DNA of 29,636 bases. Origin: a virus. The stretch is from the IMG/VR virus record IMGVR_UViG_3300011116_000444, positions 1-29,636 of that record. One strand, written 5' to 3'. The notes under the pieces were generated by a model, which saw only the letters and a program-made list of their open reading frames with translations, searched no databases and was not told where the DNA came from. The translations under genes were made by a program, and so were the position numbers. Below are positions 2,373 through 14,779 of the stretch, one piece after another (within the stretch, counting starts at the first letter, position 1; each line of letters opens with the position of its first letter).

Positions 2373-2726
2373 TTAAAAAATACCAGAATTGGAATCGTTG
2401 TTCAAGTGTGTCTTGAGCCTGTGGCAGTTAGCACAGAGCGTCTGTAGGTTAGACGGGTCATTGTTCCACCTGTCCCCGTCTATGTGATCGACGTCGAGCT
2501 GACTGATATGTACTGGCTTGAAGTCACAGTGCTGGCAGTAGTCCTTCTTGTGGACTGCGTAAGGGTATAAGAGTTTGTTATGGGCTTTAATGTAGACAGT
2601 CTTGCACTTGTATCGTGCCTTAAGACTGGCTCTTTTTGCATCTCTAAGTTTGATTTTAGTTGGGCCACAGACCGAGCATACGCCCGTCCGTTCTTCTTCG
2701 TTAATCTGCGAAAGTCTGTGCTTCAT
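2373..2726 (-). CDS. HNH endonuclease with zinc-binding cysteines
   Basis: The protein is about 117 aa from the ATG at 2726; a GTG at 2741 would add five residues. The C-terminal half holds a complete HNH motif: LDVDHIDGDRWNNDP, then NLQTLCANCHRLKTH. The paired Cys motifs CQHC and CANC should bind a structural zinc. An N-terminal CSVCG pair makes a second possible zinc site. HNH proteins of this size in phages are either free-standing homing endonucleases or packaging nucleases. Here the gene is on the opposite strand to its late-gene neighbours, far from terminase and bounded by a terminator, which favours a homing-type selfish gene. Its start overlaps the end of the zinc-ribbon gene at 2701. 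Confidence 0.85.
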   Translation of the reverse strand: MKHRLSQINEEERTGVCSVCGPTKIKLRDAKRASLKARYKCKTVYIKAHNKLLYPYAVHKKDYCQHCDFKPVHISQLDVDHIDGDRWNNDPSNLQTLCANCHRLKTHLNNDSNSGIF

Positions 2727-2934
2727 ACCTGTCAGGTTCACACGGTACTCGTACTAGAGCACCGCAAGAAAAGCAGGTAGCGTCTAGGAAATACCAGGAT
2801 AGCTCGTAGTCATCAAAGGACGCTGCGACGTTGAATACTTGAGAGCCACAGATGCACACGTGGACTGGTCCTAAGTCCCTTAAATCGGCTCCAGTGACCT
2901 GTGGTAACCCTCGCAGAGGGTTCCTGTGCTTCAT
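2701..2934 (-). CDS. Small zinc-ribbon protein
   Basis: From the ATG at 2934 this is 77 aa. It has a CxC pair (Cys27, Cys29) and a CxxC pair (Cys54, Cys57) around a predicted beta region (FDDYELSWYFLDATCF), which makes one likely zinc ribbon. The frame is open to a GTG at 3030, but that extension runs through hairpin-rich DNA and has no ribosome binding site, so I prefer the inner ATG, which also lacks a clear Shine-Dalgarno. The pattern looks like a conserved small actinophage protein of unknown function. It overlaps the HNH gene downstream and is transcribed away from the proteasome-like gene. Confidence 0.65.
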   Translation of the reverse strand: MKHRNPLRGLPQVTGADLRDLGPVHVCICGSQVFNVAASFDDYELSWYFLDATCFSCGALVRVPCEPDRYEAQTFAD

Positions 2935-2963: not shown

Positions 2964-3077
2964 AGGTAACCTGTCGGTTACCTACTGACTGCGCCCGTGA
3001 AGGGCGCCCTGTCTGTTTCTGCTCGCTCACGCTCGCAATTGTACACAGACACCTGCCTAGTATGTGTCTTGCGACAC
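2964..3077. promoter_or_regulatory. Divergent intergenic region with three inverted repeats
   Basis: Three hairpins or dyads lie between the leftward zinc gene and the rightward proteasome-like gene. The first is 8 bp around TGTC (2964-2971 with 2976-2983). The second is 6 bp around GTGAA (2991-2996 with 3002-3007). The third is 5 bp around TTGC (3064-3068 with 3073-3077), which ends 11 bp before a -10-like element. They are candidate operators or RNA hairpins for divergent promoters. Confidence 0.45.
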
Positions 3078-3085
3078 GCCAAGAC

Positions 3086-3100
3086 TGGTAAGATACTTTA
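3086..3100 (+). promoter_or_regulatory. Extended -10 promoter for a leaderless early transcript
   Basis: A TGG-TAAGAT sequence (extended -10; hexamer at 3089-3094) ends 6 bp before the ATG at 3101, so transcription would start at or next to the A of the start codon. No Shine-Dalgarno is present in this gap. No good -35 hexamer is seen at 16-18 bp (TTGCGA lies at only 14 bp). Leaderless mRNAs are common in Actinobacteria, so the fit is plausible. Confidence 0.5.
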
Positions 3101-3661
3101 ATGACAACACTAGTAGGTATTCAAGGCTCAGACTTTGTAGTCTTCGCGGCCGATAGTCAGATCACTGACGGTGACCAACGCATAATCTCGGTGGAAACAC
3201 CCAAGATTATCAGTACTGGTAAGTATCTTCTTGGTCTTACTGGTGACTCACGTCCAGGTGACATCCTTGCCTACGCGTGGAAGCCACCGCTATATCGTGG
3301 TGAAAATCCCGTGAAGTTTATGGGAGCCAAGGTGCTACCCAGTATGTCAGCTGCGTTCAAAGAAGGTAACTACGAGATAGATAACAAGGAGATGAACTTC
3401 TCGTTCCTTATCTCATTCAATGCCAACCTGTTCTCAATCGGTGGCGACCTGTCCTTTAACACATCTGAGCGTGGCCTGTTCTCTGCAGGCTCCGGTGGAA
3501 ATTATGCCCTTGGGTACTTGTATTCCTTGCCAAGTAAGAATTACAATAAGGTCTTAACGGCAAGTGTGGTAGCAGAAGAGGCAGTCAGGATTGCATCCTT
3601 ACTGGATATCAATACGCATCCACCAATACAAGTAATAGCACAAGTGAGGATGGATAAATGA
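3101..3661 (+). CDS. Proteasome beta / HslV-like Ntn hydrolase
   Basis: This 186-aa protein has the hallmarks of the proteasome beta/HslV peptidase family. It begins MTTLVGIQGSDFVVFAADSQ; removal of Met1 would expose Thr2 as the N-terminal nucleophile. Asp18 (mature Asp17), Lys35 (near Lys33) and Ser131 in SAGSGG (near Ser129) match the other active-site positions, and LLGLTGDSR fits the core after the second strand. There is no propeptide, as in HslV. It is the first gene of the replication-region operon and probably leaderless. No alpha subunit, HslU or Mpa-like ATPase is encoded here, so it may assemble alone or with host parts. Peptidase activity is inferred from the intact residues; the substrate is unknown. 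Confidence 0.82.
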   Translation: MTTLVGIQGSDFVVFAADSQITDGDQRIISVETPKIISTGKYLLGLTGDSRPGDILAYAWKPPLYRGENPVKFMGAKVLPSMSAAFKEGNYEIDNKEMNFSFLISFNANLFSIGGDLSFNTSERGLFSAGSGGNYALGYLYSLPSKNYNKVLTASVVAEEAVRIASLLDINTHPPIQVIAQVRMDK

Positions 3662-3765
3662 AAGAGTTGATACTGGTAGCAATCGGTAGTTTTGTATTAG
3701 GTTTTATCGCAGCTTACTGCTTTGATACTTTCCTAACCTGGAAGGATGACCGCAAGTGGCAATGA
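3658..3765 (+). CDS. 35-aa single-pass membrane peptide
   Basis: The ATG at 3658 overlaps the stop of the proteasome-like gene (ATGA). The peptide starts MKELILVAIGSFVLGFIAAY, forms one hydrophobic helix (about residues 4-26, with Gly spacing), and ends in a charged tail (KDDRKWQ). Its stop overlaps the GTG start of the next gene. This position between two coupled genes and the clean membrane helix support a real gene. The function is unknown. Confidence 0.6.
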   Translation: MKELILVAIGSFVLGFIAAYCFDTFLTWKDDRKWQ

Positions 3766-4004
3766 CACAAGATGAGTTATTAGCAGCAATAGATAAGATT
3801 TACTTAGATGGATTTGATGGTGCTCTTATTGATGCACTTCGTGCGGTAGTAAATTTTCATAAGCCATACACTATGGATGATGACGAGGATGGGGAACCAG
3901 GTTGTTCTTGTATTCCGCAACTTCCAGCTTTCTTAAACCCTTACCCTTGTCCAACAGTGCAAGTTATTCAGGAGGTGTTGACTCTTGGCAATACAGGATC
4001 CTAA
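3756..4004 (+). CDS. Small acidic Cys-containing phage protein
   Basis: This 82-aa protein has an N-terminal helix (MTQDELLAAIDKIY) and a second helix (ALIDALRAVVNFHKP), then an acidic loop (DDDEDGE) and two Cys (GCSC), ending with PYPCPTVQVIQEVL. The layout 'ALRAVVxxHKP ... PCPTxQxI' recalls a conserved actinophage family of unknown function. The start is GTG at 3756, with AAGGA about 10 bp upstream; an ATG two codons later is possible. The C-terminal codons contain the AGGAGG that serves the next gene, which overlaps by 20 bp. Confidence 0.7.
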   Translation: MAMTQDELLAAIDKIYLDGFDGALIDALRAVVNFHKPYTMDDDEDGEPGCSCIPQLPAFLNPYPCPTVQVIQEVLTLGNTGS

Positions 4005-4944
4005 AGAATTACTGCTTCACGTACTGCATTCTCAAGATGCCAGTCGTGACCGCAGTATGCAGACTGAGGTAGGACCATCTGAGATTGGTGGCTGTAAGCG
4101 CAAGGTCTGGTACAGACTCAACGCACAACCACATACAAATGATAACCAATCAAAGCTTGCAGCCATTATGGGTACTGCTATTCACGCAGCCATTGAAGAG
4201 GCTATCGGTGCTATTGATCCTGAAGGTAAAGAATACTTGGTGGAAACTGAGGTTGCCTACGGTGATATGAAAGCACACGTGGATTTATTTATACCTAGCT
4301 CTGGCGCAGTCGTTGACTGGAAGACATCTAAGATTAAGAACCTTGGTTACTTCCCATCAAACCAACAGCGCTGGCAAGTACAGCTATACGGTTACTTGCT
4401 ATCTAAGAATGGCTATGAAGTTAAGACAGTTAACCTTGTAGCAATAGCACGTGATGGGTCTGAGAAGGACATCAAGGTACATACAGAACCTTATGATGAA
4501 GTGATGGCACTTGCTGCTTTGTCTTGGCTTGCCAATGTCAAGGCTAGTACTGTGCTACCAGAGCCTGAAAAGGATCAGTCATTCTGCAAAGACTACTGCC
4601 AGTACTACGATGCAACAGAACAGATGGGTTGCGGTGGTCTTAAGAAAGAACGTATCGTCCTTAGTGAAGTCGTGATTGAGGACGTAGAAGTTGACAAGCA
4701 CGCACTGCACTACTTACAGTTAGATAGCAAGATTAAAGAGCTGGAAAAGGAAAGAGAAACCTTAAAGGAATCTTTAATTGGAAGTACTGGTACTACTGCG
4801 AGTGGTATCGAAATCAGTTGGACAATAGTCAAAGGACGTGAGTCAGTTGATGCAAAGGAAGTTGAGAAACTTCTAGGATTCGTACCCAAGGTTGTTGGTA
4901 ATGAATCTACAAGACTAAACATCAAATCTATCGGAGGAAAATAA
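3985..4944 (+). CDS. Cas4/RecB-like PD-(D/E)XK exonuclease, TTG start
   Basis: This 319-aa nuclease has the RecB/Cas4 motifs in order: Cys37 in GGCKRKVWYRL, His67 in GTAIHAAIEE, Asp100 in HVDLFI, Asp111-x-Lys113 in VVDWKTSK, and QVQLYGYLL at 131-139. Cys201, Cys205 and Cys216 together with Cys37 could hold an iron-sulfur cluster as in Cas4 and AddB. A charged coil (LDSKIKELEKERETLKESL) follows. The start is TTG: AGGAGG at 3970-3975 ends 9 bp before it and no ATG/GTG fits. The likely role is 5' or 3' end resection for phage recombination, or processing of replication intermediates, as part of the operon with helicase and resolvase-like genes. Confidence 0.85.
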   Translation: MAIQDPKELLLHVLHSQDASRDRSMQTEVGPSEIGGCKRKVWYRLNAQPHTNDNQSKLAAIMGTAIHAAIEEAIGAIDPEGKEYLVETEVAYGDMKAHVDLFIPSSGAVVDWKTSKIKNLGYFPSNQQRWQVQLYGYLLSKNGYEVKTVNLVAIARDGSEKDIKVHTEPYDEVMALAALSWLANVKASTVLPEPEKDQSFCKDYCQYYDATEQMGCGGLKKERIVLSEVVIEDVEVDKHALHYLQLDSKIKELEKERETLKESLIGSTGTTASGIEISWTIVKGRESVDAKEVEKLLGFVPKVVGNESTRLNIKSIGGK

Positions 4945-5319
4945 ATGGCTGCAAACGAGAACACAAAGTTCCAAATCAACTACAAGTTGAATGACGGAAC
5001 TCTTATCAATCTTTACGCTACAGATGTAAAGGATCTTGAGACAGGTCTTATGGACCTATCAATGGTGGCAACACTTATCAAGTCAACATCAACAGAACTA
5101 GCAGGCGGTAACGCTACAGCTACAGCAGTGCAGAACATTCAAGCACAGTTCACAGCAACACCAGTTGCTGCACCGGTTGAACAGCCTGGTGCTAAAGCCT
5201 GTAAGCACGGAGCGATGGCCTTTAAGACAGGCACATCAGCACGTGGACCTTGGCAGGGTTATATGTGTGCAGCACCCAAGGGTGCATTAGATAAGTGCGA
5301 GACTATCTGGGTCCGATAA
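4945..5319 (+). CDS. Conserved phage protein next to the exonuclease (possible ssDNA-binding role)
   Basis: This 124-aa protein has a beta-type N-terminal half (FQINYKLNDGTLINLYA), an Ala/Thr/Pro-rich linker (about 70-88) and a C-terminal Cys/His module (ACKHGAMAF, GYMCAAPKG, DKCETIWV) that may bind a metal. GGAGGAAA gives a strong ribosome binding site directly before the ATG. Proteins with this C-terminal signature often sit between the Cas4-like nuclease and helicase genes in actinophages (recollection). A role as a recombination or ssDNA-binding partner is a guess from position only. Confidence 0.65.
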   Translation: MAANENTKFQINYKLNDGTLINLYATDVKDLETGLMDLSMVATLIKSTSTELAGGNATATAVQNIQAQFTATPVAAPVEQPGAKACKHGAMAFKTGTSARGPWQGYMCAAPKGALDKCETIWVR

Positions 5320-5322
5320 CTT

Positions 5323-5583
5323 ATGCGAGGGCCTTGGAATTTTGAGGATCCACGCTGTAAGAATATAGACACAGAAATCTTTTTCCCACCAGAGGCAGAA
5401 CATCCACGAGAGATAAATTATATTTTATCTATCTGCGGTAACTGCAAACACCAAGTTGAGTGTGCTGATTGGGGAATCAAGAACGAACGCTTTGGTATCT
5501 GGGGTGGATTAACTCACGGTAAACGAGCACACATTCGTAAGCTCAAAGGTATAGTCATTCCGTTTGGAGAGTTTAGTGCTTGA
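5323..5583 (+). CDS. whiB: WhiB-family iron-sulfur transcription factor
   Basis: This 86-aa protein has the four WhiB cysteines: Cys12, then Cys38, Cys41 and Cys47 (CGNC...VEC). The turn FGIWGG (57-62) and a basic tail (HGKRAHIRKLKG) follow. WhiB proteins bind a 4Fe-4S cluster, contact region 4 of the housekeeping sigma factor and redirect RNA polymerase; they are restricted to Actinobacteria and their phages. It lies inside the replication operon, 3 bp after the previous gene, and overlaps the helicase start. It is probably used to reprogramme host promoters or to block superinfection, as known for phage WhiB proteins such as the one in mycobacteriophage TM4. Confidence 0.92.
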   Translation: MRGPWNFEDPRCKNIDTEIFFPPEAEHPREINYILSICGNCKHQVECADWGIKNERFGIWGGLTHGKRAHIRKLKGIVIPFGEFSA

Positions 5584-6454
5584 TTTACAGCGTGCGTGGG
5601 GAACAGTCCTCACTAAAGCAACGCCTCTTCCTGATGTATGGCTAGCGCTAGCAGAGAAGCAGATTAAGTTCCGTAGGGGACAGGTCTGTATGGTAGCTGC
5701 AGCACCTAACGCTGGTAAGTCTATGTTCTCATTGATCTATGCGGTAAAGGCTAAAGTACCTACGCTGTTCTTTTCAGCAGATACTGATACCACTACTGTG
5801 ATGCTTAGAGCAGCAGCACACGCATCAGGTCACACGCAAGTTAACGTGGAGCAGAATCTATCTTCTGATTCACACTTCTACGATGGCTACTTTGATAAGT
5901 TAAAACATATCAAGTGGGTCTTTGACTCCAGTCCGTCACTCGATGATATCGAGTTGGAGATTAAGGCATACGTAGAGTTGTACGGCCAAGCCCCTGAGTT
6001 GATCATCATAGATAACCTTATGAATGTAGCTGCTGAGACAGACAACGAATGGGCTGGGCTTCGTGCAATTATGATGGAGCTTCACGATATGGCACGTAAG
6101 ACTGAAGCCGGCGTACTGGTACTGCACCACGTCAGTGAGCAGTCAGAGTACGGTAGTCCAACAGAACCACCAGCACGTCGTGCTATTCACGGTAAGGTCA
6201 GTCAACTACCAGCACTGATCCTTACCTTGGGCTACAACCCTGAGTACAATGAACTTAAGATTGCTGCAGTAAAGAACCGCTTTGGTCCACACGCTGCAGA
6301 TGGCAAGACCTATGCAATCCTTACTGTCAGCTATGCTAACTGTCAGATATCAGATAAGAACGCATACGGTGCAATGCTGGCAAGGGATGCACGAGCAGGC
6401 TACACTGGTAACTACATACCAGAAGATGAATACGGACACGAGGTGGCGGTGTAA
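5576..6454 (+). CDS. RecA-fold (DnaB/KaiC-like) replicative helicase ATPase
   Basis: The protein is about 292 aa from GTG 5576. That start has GGAGAG at 5566-5571 and overlaps the WhiB stop by 8 bp; a TTG at 5564 would add four residues. The Walker A motif is AAAPNAGKS (Lys48 from the GTG start), Walker B is ELIIIDNLMN (about 142-151), and VLVLHHVSE fits the DnaB-type H4 region after it. The N-terminal DnaB domain is missing, so it is a single RecA-core protein like many small phage helicases or RadA-like ATPases. Its neighbours (split primase, nucleases) support a replication-fork helicase. Hexamer formation and partner choice cannot be read from the sequence. Confidence 0.82.
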   Translation: MLDLQRAWGTVLTKATPLPDVWLALAEKQIKFRRGQVCMVAAAPNAGKSMFSLIYAVKAKVPTLFFSADTDTTTVMLRAAAHASGHTQVNVEQNLSSDSHFYDGYFDKLKHIKWVFDSSPSLDDIELEIKAYVELYGQAPELIIIDNLMNVAAETDNEWAGLRAIMMELHDMARKTEAGVLVLHHVSEQSEYGSPTEPPARRAIHGKVSQLPALILTLGYNPEYNELKIAAVKNRFGPHAADGKTYAILTVSYANCQISDKNAYGAMLARDARAGYTGNYIPEDEYGHEVAV

Positions 6455-14164: not shown

Positions 14165-14779
14165 CTATTTGATACGCATAGGCATTAGGATCGCGCTCCA
14201 ATCAACCGCGCTATCGTTTTGGATGATGATATTCATAGGCTTACCATTGCCCGCAAAGTGGATGCTCACGCCTTTGCCTTTGCCCGCGATCTTTGCATAA
14301 TCTGCAAAGAATGAAGGGTTAAAGGTAGCTATCTCTTGCCCTACTAGTGGAGCGCTACCGTCTAGATACTTTTCATAGGGCGGATAAGTGCCAGCTACAA
14401 GGCTCACGGTTACAGCGTTACCGTGCGTGGATACGCTCAACATATCGCCTAGGTGAGAGAGAGTAACAGGCACAGTATTAGCTCGCGCTCCCTCGCCTTT
14501 AAGTAGGGCAAGGATGCGTTTAACATCTGCAAGCGCTACAAGGCTTGCGGGTAGCGTCTGCCCGCTAGTCTCAAGCGCAATAGCTCCGTGGATCAAGCGG
14601 TAACGATCCGTTGCGGTAGCGGTTAGGTGGATACCCGTAGCCTCAAGGCGCACGGTATTGAGTACGGGTAGATCATTCTTAGCGTGAGCGTGAGTCATAG
14701 CTCCCGCAAGTAGATCGCTAAGATCGCCTAGCTTAACCGTTGCGGTAGATAGCTCTTGAGCTGTAGTTACTGTGTCCAT
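14165..14779 (-). CDS. DNA sliding clamp-like protein (DnaN family, short)
   Basis: This 204-aa protein has a clamp-like layout: NDLPVLNTVRLEATGIHLTA followed by TDRYRLIHG (the 'TDxYRL' of DnaN), a central LADVKRILALLKG helix, TVPVTLSHLGDMLSV and VAGTYPPYEKYL, FNPSFFADYAKIAGKGKGVS, and a C-terminal SAILMPMRIK similar to the last strand of bacterial beta clamps. Bacterial DnaN has three domains in about 370 aa. This is enough for about two, so it may form a trimer like PCNA or T4 gp45, or be a remote variant. No DNA polymerase is in the window, so the partner is encoded elsewhere or by the host. It may also compete for host clamp partners. Confidence 0.75.
   Translation of the reverse strand: MDTVTTAQELSTATVKLGDLSDLLAGAMTHAHAKNDLPVLNTVRLEATGIHLTATATDRYRLIHGAIALETSGQTLPASLVALADVKRILALLKGEGARANTVPVTLSHLGDMLSVSTHGNAVTVSLVAGTYPPYEKYLDGSAPLVGQEIATFNPSFFADYAKIAGKGKGVSIHFAGNGKPMNIIIQNDSAVDWSAILMPMRIK

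Follow-up and report, generated by a model that had tools for sequence, protein, structure and literature searches.

What does a virus do with a proteasome-like peptidase encoded in front of its replication genes, and is the enzyme likely to be intact? The question arises from a 29.6-kb virus contig, the whole of which (29 636 nucleotides) was analysed here and is referred to as the window. The protease gene and its neighbors are arranged as follows.

2373–2741, minus strand: divergent HNH endonuclease on the 5' side of the protease, bordering the promoter region
3101–3661, plus strand: proteasome-like Ntn peptidase gene, ATG start, 186 aa
3658–3765, plus strand: microprotein of 35 aa, predicted to have a single transmembrane (TM) segment, whose start overlaps the protease stop (ATGA)
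3762–4004, plus strand: 80-aa ORF, ATGA-coupled to the microprotein and missing in most relatives
3985–4944, plus strand: Cas4/RecB-like exonuclease of the same operon (PF01930, phrog_1674)
4945–5319, plus strand: mycobacteriophage L5 gp49-like protein of the same operon (PF25690)
5323–5583, plus strand: WhiB-like regulator, a marker of actinobacterial hosts (PF02467)
5564–6454, plus strand: DnaB-like helicase, the only nearby ATPase and not an unfoldase

The window virus is a common freshwater virus of actinobacteria, of the approximately 40-kb, WhiB-encoding type related to phages E7 and F5, and its long relatives are records of 38–42 kb. Besides DnaB, the Cas4/RecB exonuclease, the L5 gp49-like protein and WhiB, the contig encodes TerL, portal, endolysin, a scaffold-like protein, a sigma-like factor and primase. 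Its TerL and portal share 47 and 52% identity, respectively, with those of LanE43-AprE7, which is the cultured 'Ca. Planktophila' phage E7 (PMC10202952), and the G+C content is 46.1% in the window versus 44.8% in E7. The protease has homologs in E7 and in the sister phage F5 (about 30% identity). We infer that the host is actinobacterial, probably a member of the Nanopelagicales. Elsewhere in the window, a clamp-like ORF (14165–14779, minus strand) matches DNA polymerase processivity factor and 'RusA-like' PHROGs, labels that conflict with each other.

The protease is followed, in order, by the 35-aa ORF, the 80-aa ORF, the Cas4/RecB exonuclease, the gp49-like gene, WhiB, DnaB, a resolvase and the primase. 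A preliminary description of this DNA had placed the protease first in the replication operon, with neither an alpha subunit nor a regulator ATPase near it, and both statements hold: the divergent HNH gene lies 5' of the protease and the replication genes after it, the proteasome homolog is present in a single copy per genome in 12 of 12 phage records, and the HslU/ClpX-type AAA_2 domain (PF07724) was found in none of the 12. In a search for AAA unfoldases with PF00004 and PF07724 in 12 phage genomes, the only AAA matches were to the DnaB gene of E7-type genomes.

The N terminus of the window protein reads MTTLVGIQGSDFVVFAADSQ, starting with MTTLVG, and the predicted catalytic set of the 186-aa protein comprises the nucleophile Thr2 (Thr1 after Met removal), Asp18, Lys35, Gly48, Ser131 and Asp169. 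Among 78 window-type sequences, T2, T3, D18, K35, G45, G48, G130, S131, G132, D169 and T172 are invariant; of these, T2, D18, K35, G48 and S131 correspond to the Thr1, Asp17, Lys33, Gly47 and Ser129-type residues expected in the proteasome-like family. A 66-row alignment that reaches phage and bacterial proteins down to ~25% identity (about 25–35%) still shows D18, K35, G48, G130, G132 and G138 as invariant and T2 as at least 90% conserved. The protein scores 29.2 bits against Pfam PF00227 (curated cut-off, 22.4) and is a clear member of PHROG_1040 ('peptidase HslV family', E 6.5e-22), an automatic, remote-homology group without an assigned role. The first 64 IMG/VR contigs contain copies of the protease that are 70–92% identical, and a wider pattern search showed that at least 440 IMG/VR contigs encode a relative. 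Because related copies are many and the median pN/pS is 0.20 (77 relatives), which indicates purifying selection, the protease gene is maintained as a protein.

An AlphaFold2 model built from the 66-row alignment is a confident proteasome fold (pLDDT 93.7, pTM 0.90). This model, which is of the monomer, contains both helix pairs, H1/H2 (50–58, 70–88) and H3/H4 (133–142, 151–168), and lacks a connectase-type insertion. Foldseek ranked the Thiobacillus BPH (Betaproteobacteria proteasome homolog) at the top (E 3.3e-11, TM 0.76), with HslV next, and in VIA-align BPH (Z 20.5, rmsd 2.8, 174 aligned) came out ahead of an archaeal beta subunit (Z 20.0) and Mtb PrcB (Z 19.1). Since several of the VIA-align Z scores tie within 1, the fold alone cannot choose the nearest family. 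The sequence profile of the family, unlike the fold, does point to a nearest solved relative, namely BPH and then HslV: compared with PDB sequences, it gave 2.2e-37 for BPH, about 1e-17 for HslV and about 1e-8 for eukaryotic beta subunits. The preliminary description, which had read the gene as a phage-borne proteasome/HslV-like peptidase whose catalytic residues are all in place, is thus borne out by PF00227, PHROG_1040 and the predicted Ntn fold alike, and a predicted structure of some other fold, which it had named as grounds for refutation, was not what the model gave; Thr2, Asp18, Lys35 and Ser131 stand where it had put them, each invariant in the 78 window-type sequences. With good confidence, the window gene is predicted to encode an intact threonine-nucleophile enzyme.

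Two elements precede the gene.

3064–3078, plus strand: conserved imperfect palindrome GTGTCTTGCGACACG, seen in 27 of 37 distinct ATG contexts
3086–3094, plus strand: extended -10-like box TGGTAAGAT of conserved geometry, ending 6 nt before the ATG

The sequence TGNTANNNT ends 6–7 nt before the ATG in 34 of the 37 distinct ATG contexts (shuffled mean, 0.75), and a Shine–Dalgarno-like match at normal spacing was found in only four of these 37. Because the -10/ATG geometry is conserved and Shine–Dalgarno-like matches are few, the protease mRNA is predicted to be leaderless. The Met-Thr-Thr start without a propeptide, also noted in the preliminary description, agrees with this ATG, whose spacing from the box is conserved among relatives. 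A plain sigma-70 scan of the promoter region detected no -35/-10 pair, so that the promoter assignment is drawn solely from the conserved extended -10 geometry. Just upstream of the -10-like box, GTGTCTTnCGACACG occurs in 27 of the 37 contexts and GACACGC is kept in 35; the palindrome, present as a single copy in the window, is possibly an operator or a substitute for the -35 element. The segment 3064–3100 is likely to form a leaderless promoter unit, and such a unit is found before inserted genes too.

These inserted genes accompany an unusual replacement of the start codon. The first codon of the protease is AUC or AUA in nine of the first 64 contigs (five distinct contexts), namely ATC in L007 (1438), L012 (3945), L015 (8001), L020 (3603), L055 (2280), L038 (8001), L039 (8001) and L041 (1524), and ATA in L049 (8001). 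At these loci an Endonuclease VII-type HNH gene or a 51-aa ORF lies exactly between the leaderless-type promoter and the protease; the inserted gene is the one that begins at the leaderless ATG, its 3' end overlapping the start of the protease, and GAGG or GGAG is located 6–8 nt before the AUC or AUA. The pairwise pN/pS of these copies is 0.08–0.25, which argues that they are still maintained, and initiator tRNA at AUC or AUA would still yield Met-Thr, so that the nucleophile would be kept. L049 has an alternative start, an in-frame ATG five codons upstream, and L010, with a TTG start, carries a different ORF at the site of the inserted genes. A programmed frameshift as the source of the AUC-start proteins was considered at two junctions, where no slippery site was seen by eye. 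In L002 and L003 (just before 2663 and 8001, respectively), the leaderless-type ATG opens an ORF of ~19 aa, and the protease follows its stop with GTG.

A maximum-likelihood tree of 52 rows, which includes some long branches and does not resolve the deep branching order, united the window-type rows with L219 and L220 in one clade (100/99). The E7-type (99/97) and DSL-LC01-type (97/94) proteins form clades of their own, and four BPH rows branch separately (94/97). Another clade (100/99) consists of MTC-type proteins of Rhizobium and Streptomyces plasmids together with those of Moorella, Geobacillus, Vibrio and Aeromonas phages. We take this MTC-type clade to be AAH-like (AAH, the alpha-proteobacterial and actinobacterial homolog), judging by the taxa it contains rather than by the alignment of the authors who described AAH; the window-type rows fall outside it. 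Judging from the tree, the window-type protease appears to be a phage-only clade outside both BPH and the AAH-like clade. The protein is best explained as a member of the compact 'group I' branch of proteasome-like proteins (HslV/BPH/AAH/PPH). Group-I-like homologs occur in phages of Planktophila, Arthrobacter and Microbacterium, in a freshwater Actinomycetia phage and on hundreds of contigs. Two side observations concern single loci. At L196 (1002–1157), the E7-type homolog is only 52 aa long before a stop (frameshift or decay). In Aeromonas phage 4L372XY, gp205 and gp206 (L238, 2959–4355) are adjacent, very different paralogs of the PHROG HslV family with 183 and 275 aa, possibly the two subunits of a viral particle.

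Proteins of this kind are already known, since PHROGs names a 'peptidase HslV family' and Fuchs, Alva and Lupas described proteasome homologs in phages in 2021, among them PPH, AAH and others (PMC8665760). What had not been described before is the present virus branch, where the gene sits in the genome and what the protease does. Within the literature searched, viral proteasome-like proteins have been described from sequence only, their function and assembly being left open there. The present branch is abundant, with at least 440 contigs, keeps its catalytic residues intact and has relatives in phages E7 and F5; because these two can be grown on a 'Ca. Planktophila' host in culture, they allow tests of what a viral proteasome homolog does.

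Overall, the data are best explained by an ATPase-independent threonine peptidase of early infection, a reading that in our judgment has about an even chance of being right. Its starting point, shown by the sequence, is an intact, single-copy peptidase gene under purifying selection. Transcribed from its own promoter, the gene would yield a leaderless mRNA, the first of its operon and probably early in infection, as the conserved -10/ATG geometry suggests, and host methionine aminopeptidase would then strip Met1 and free the Thr. The propeptide-less BPH offers a precedent, because Met removal exposes Thr1 of Cm-BPH, as found by mass spectrometry (PMC5777263). These first three steps are, in our view, likely. 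The subunits would then assemble by themselves, with a small double ring that lacks alpha subunits as the most likely product, a step to which the fold and the conserved H1–H4 lend a fair probability. Since no phage AAA+ unfoldase was found, the enzyme would either act independently of ATP, on unfolded or short substrates, or borrow a host chaperone or unfoldase. Its role would be the removal or processing of host (or early phage) proteins during takeover, and this last part we propose tentatively.

The position of the E7-type homolog, in the late/head operon after the portal, fits poorly with an early role. Window-type contigs share a conserved block, protease-(microprotein)-Cas4-gp49-WhiB-DnaB, headed by the protease, whereas the gene immediately following the portal is the homolog in 78 of the 83 E7/DSL-type loci examined (e.g. 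L224, 7500–8036; L137, L154, L173, L187, L200 and L209), and five loci, DSL-LC01-like ones among them, have no adjoining portal. The place directly after the portal is the classical slot of prohead proteases. Since a PHROGs scan of the head-operon proteins recognized no prohead protease, but did find a scaffold-like protein and the major head protein, a capsid role is a live rival: the protein, with its one homolog per genome, would be a protease of proteasome fold that matures heads or processes the scaffold, and window-type phages would supply it from another operon. We consider this improbable. The same TerL-portal-143-1555-scaffold module exists in window-type phages but lacks the protease, which is in the early operon instead, and a protease is often dispensable where the scaffold is a separate protein. 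The homologs of Arthrobacter, Microbacterium, Ochrobactrum, Geobacillus and Vibrio phages and of DSL-LC01 are outside head operons, and in most annotated phages the homolog has early or metabolic genes around it, such as those for thymidylate synthase, PhoH, ligase, MazG and WhiB. The window-type order and these other phages speak against a capsid role as the general role of the family. A combined version, in which freshwater actinophages have an Ntn capsid protease, portal-adjacent in E7-like phages and in the early operon of window-type ones, that is also a working mini-proteasome, seems to us still harder to believe. If true, it would add an Ntn-type capsid protease and a working virus-encoded mini-proteasome at once; to our knowledge, this enzyme class is not known for capsid maturation. 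Given the position next to the portal, virion proteomics could be used to check for a capsid role.

The activity itself can also be read otherwise than in the preferred account of an early peptidase. Fuchs et al. stress that homology implies neither assembly nor proteolysis, connectase being a monomeric ligase, so the same fold can be that of a ligase (PMC8665760). BPH is inert on standard peptides and casein, yet epoxomicin binds its Thr1 (PMC5777263); because this nearest characterized relative is inert in assays, peptidase activity does not follow from an intact site. Furthermore, helix H4 is shorter in E7-type models (11 residues versus 18). A connectase-like or otherwise specialized Ntn enzyme, i.e. 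a ligase or a peptidase that processes a single substrate, working as a monomer or a small oligomer, would accommodate these points, but the presence of both H1/H2 and H3/H4 and the lack of a connectase-type insertion make it unlikely. Another target would be the host 20S proteasome, which the viral protein might mimic or poison, or whose PrcA rings or Mpa it might dock on, redirecting Pup-tagged substrates. WhiB marks an actinobacterial host, and actinobacteria commonly have PrcA and PrcB, as this host may; the model superposes on Mtb PrcB, as it does on all beta subunits. However, the sequence is nearest to BPH and HslV rather than PrcB, and homologs exist in phages of Vibrio, Aeromonas and Geobacillus, which as a rule have no 20S proteasome. 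A decoy poisoning the host particle, as raised in the preliminary description, would need no active site, whereas every active-site residue here is under purifying selection, and we regard interference with the host proteasome as quite improbable. Finally, the microprotein might anchor or gate the peptidase at the membrane. In 81 loci the ORF after the protease is almost always of the microprotein family (core GF..AY..D..L; pN/pS 0.30 in the 35-aa set), with the ATGA overlap in 50, and the TM segment was called by eye from the sequence. The microprotein is a candidate partner of the protease; however, co-occurrence is a weak link because the whole block is syntenic, an 84-aa ORF takes its place next to the homolog in E7-type loci, and the conservation of its C-terminal tail is inflated by overlap with the Cas4 start codon, seen in several relatives. 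Membrane action is therefore very improbable in our estimation.

Among known systems, BPH (5ovs, 5ovt and 5ovu) is the best match by profile, Foldseek and VIA-align. It shares with the window protein the lack of a propeptide, the catalytic set (Thr1, Asp17, Lys, Gly and Ser) and the lack of a known ATPase partner, but the two are only 20–24% identical in structural alignments, belong to separate clades and differ in that the window protein is phage-borne. HslV (ClpQ) is alike in fold, catalytic residues and the GSGG.YAL motif; in contrast, the window protein scores 31.1 bits against the TIGR03692 cut-off of 157.75, and the phage genomes have no HslU. The actinobacterial 20S beta subunit PrcB also has the same fold and catalytic residues, but TIGR03690 (bacterial 20S beta, NCBIfam) gave no match to the window protein at E 0.1, and the latter has neither a propeptide nor an alpha partner gene in the phage. 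Kinship with the host PrcB, another suggestion of the preliminary description, therefore found no support, and we rejected an origin from it as unlikely on the NCBIfam scores and the profile ranking.

PPH is likewise phage-borne and without an ATPase, but has ~140 aa and no helix H2, whereas the window protein has 186 aa and includes H2 (residues 70–88). AAH shares the group I size and fold and is also found in phages, but the MTC-type clade of Rhizobium and Streptomyces plasmid proteins is separate and supported (100/99). Fuchs et al. could find no Actinobacteria-specific phage encoding AAH (PMC8665760), and thus the window-type protease adds an actinophage branch to the proteasome homologs of viruses.
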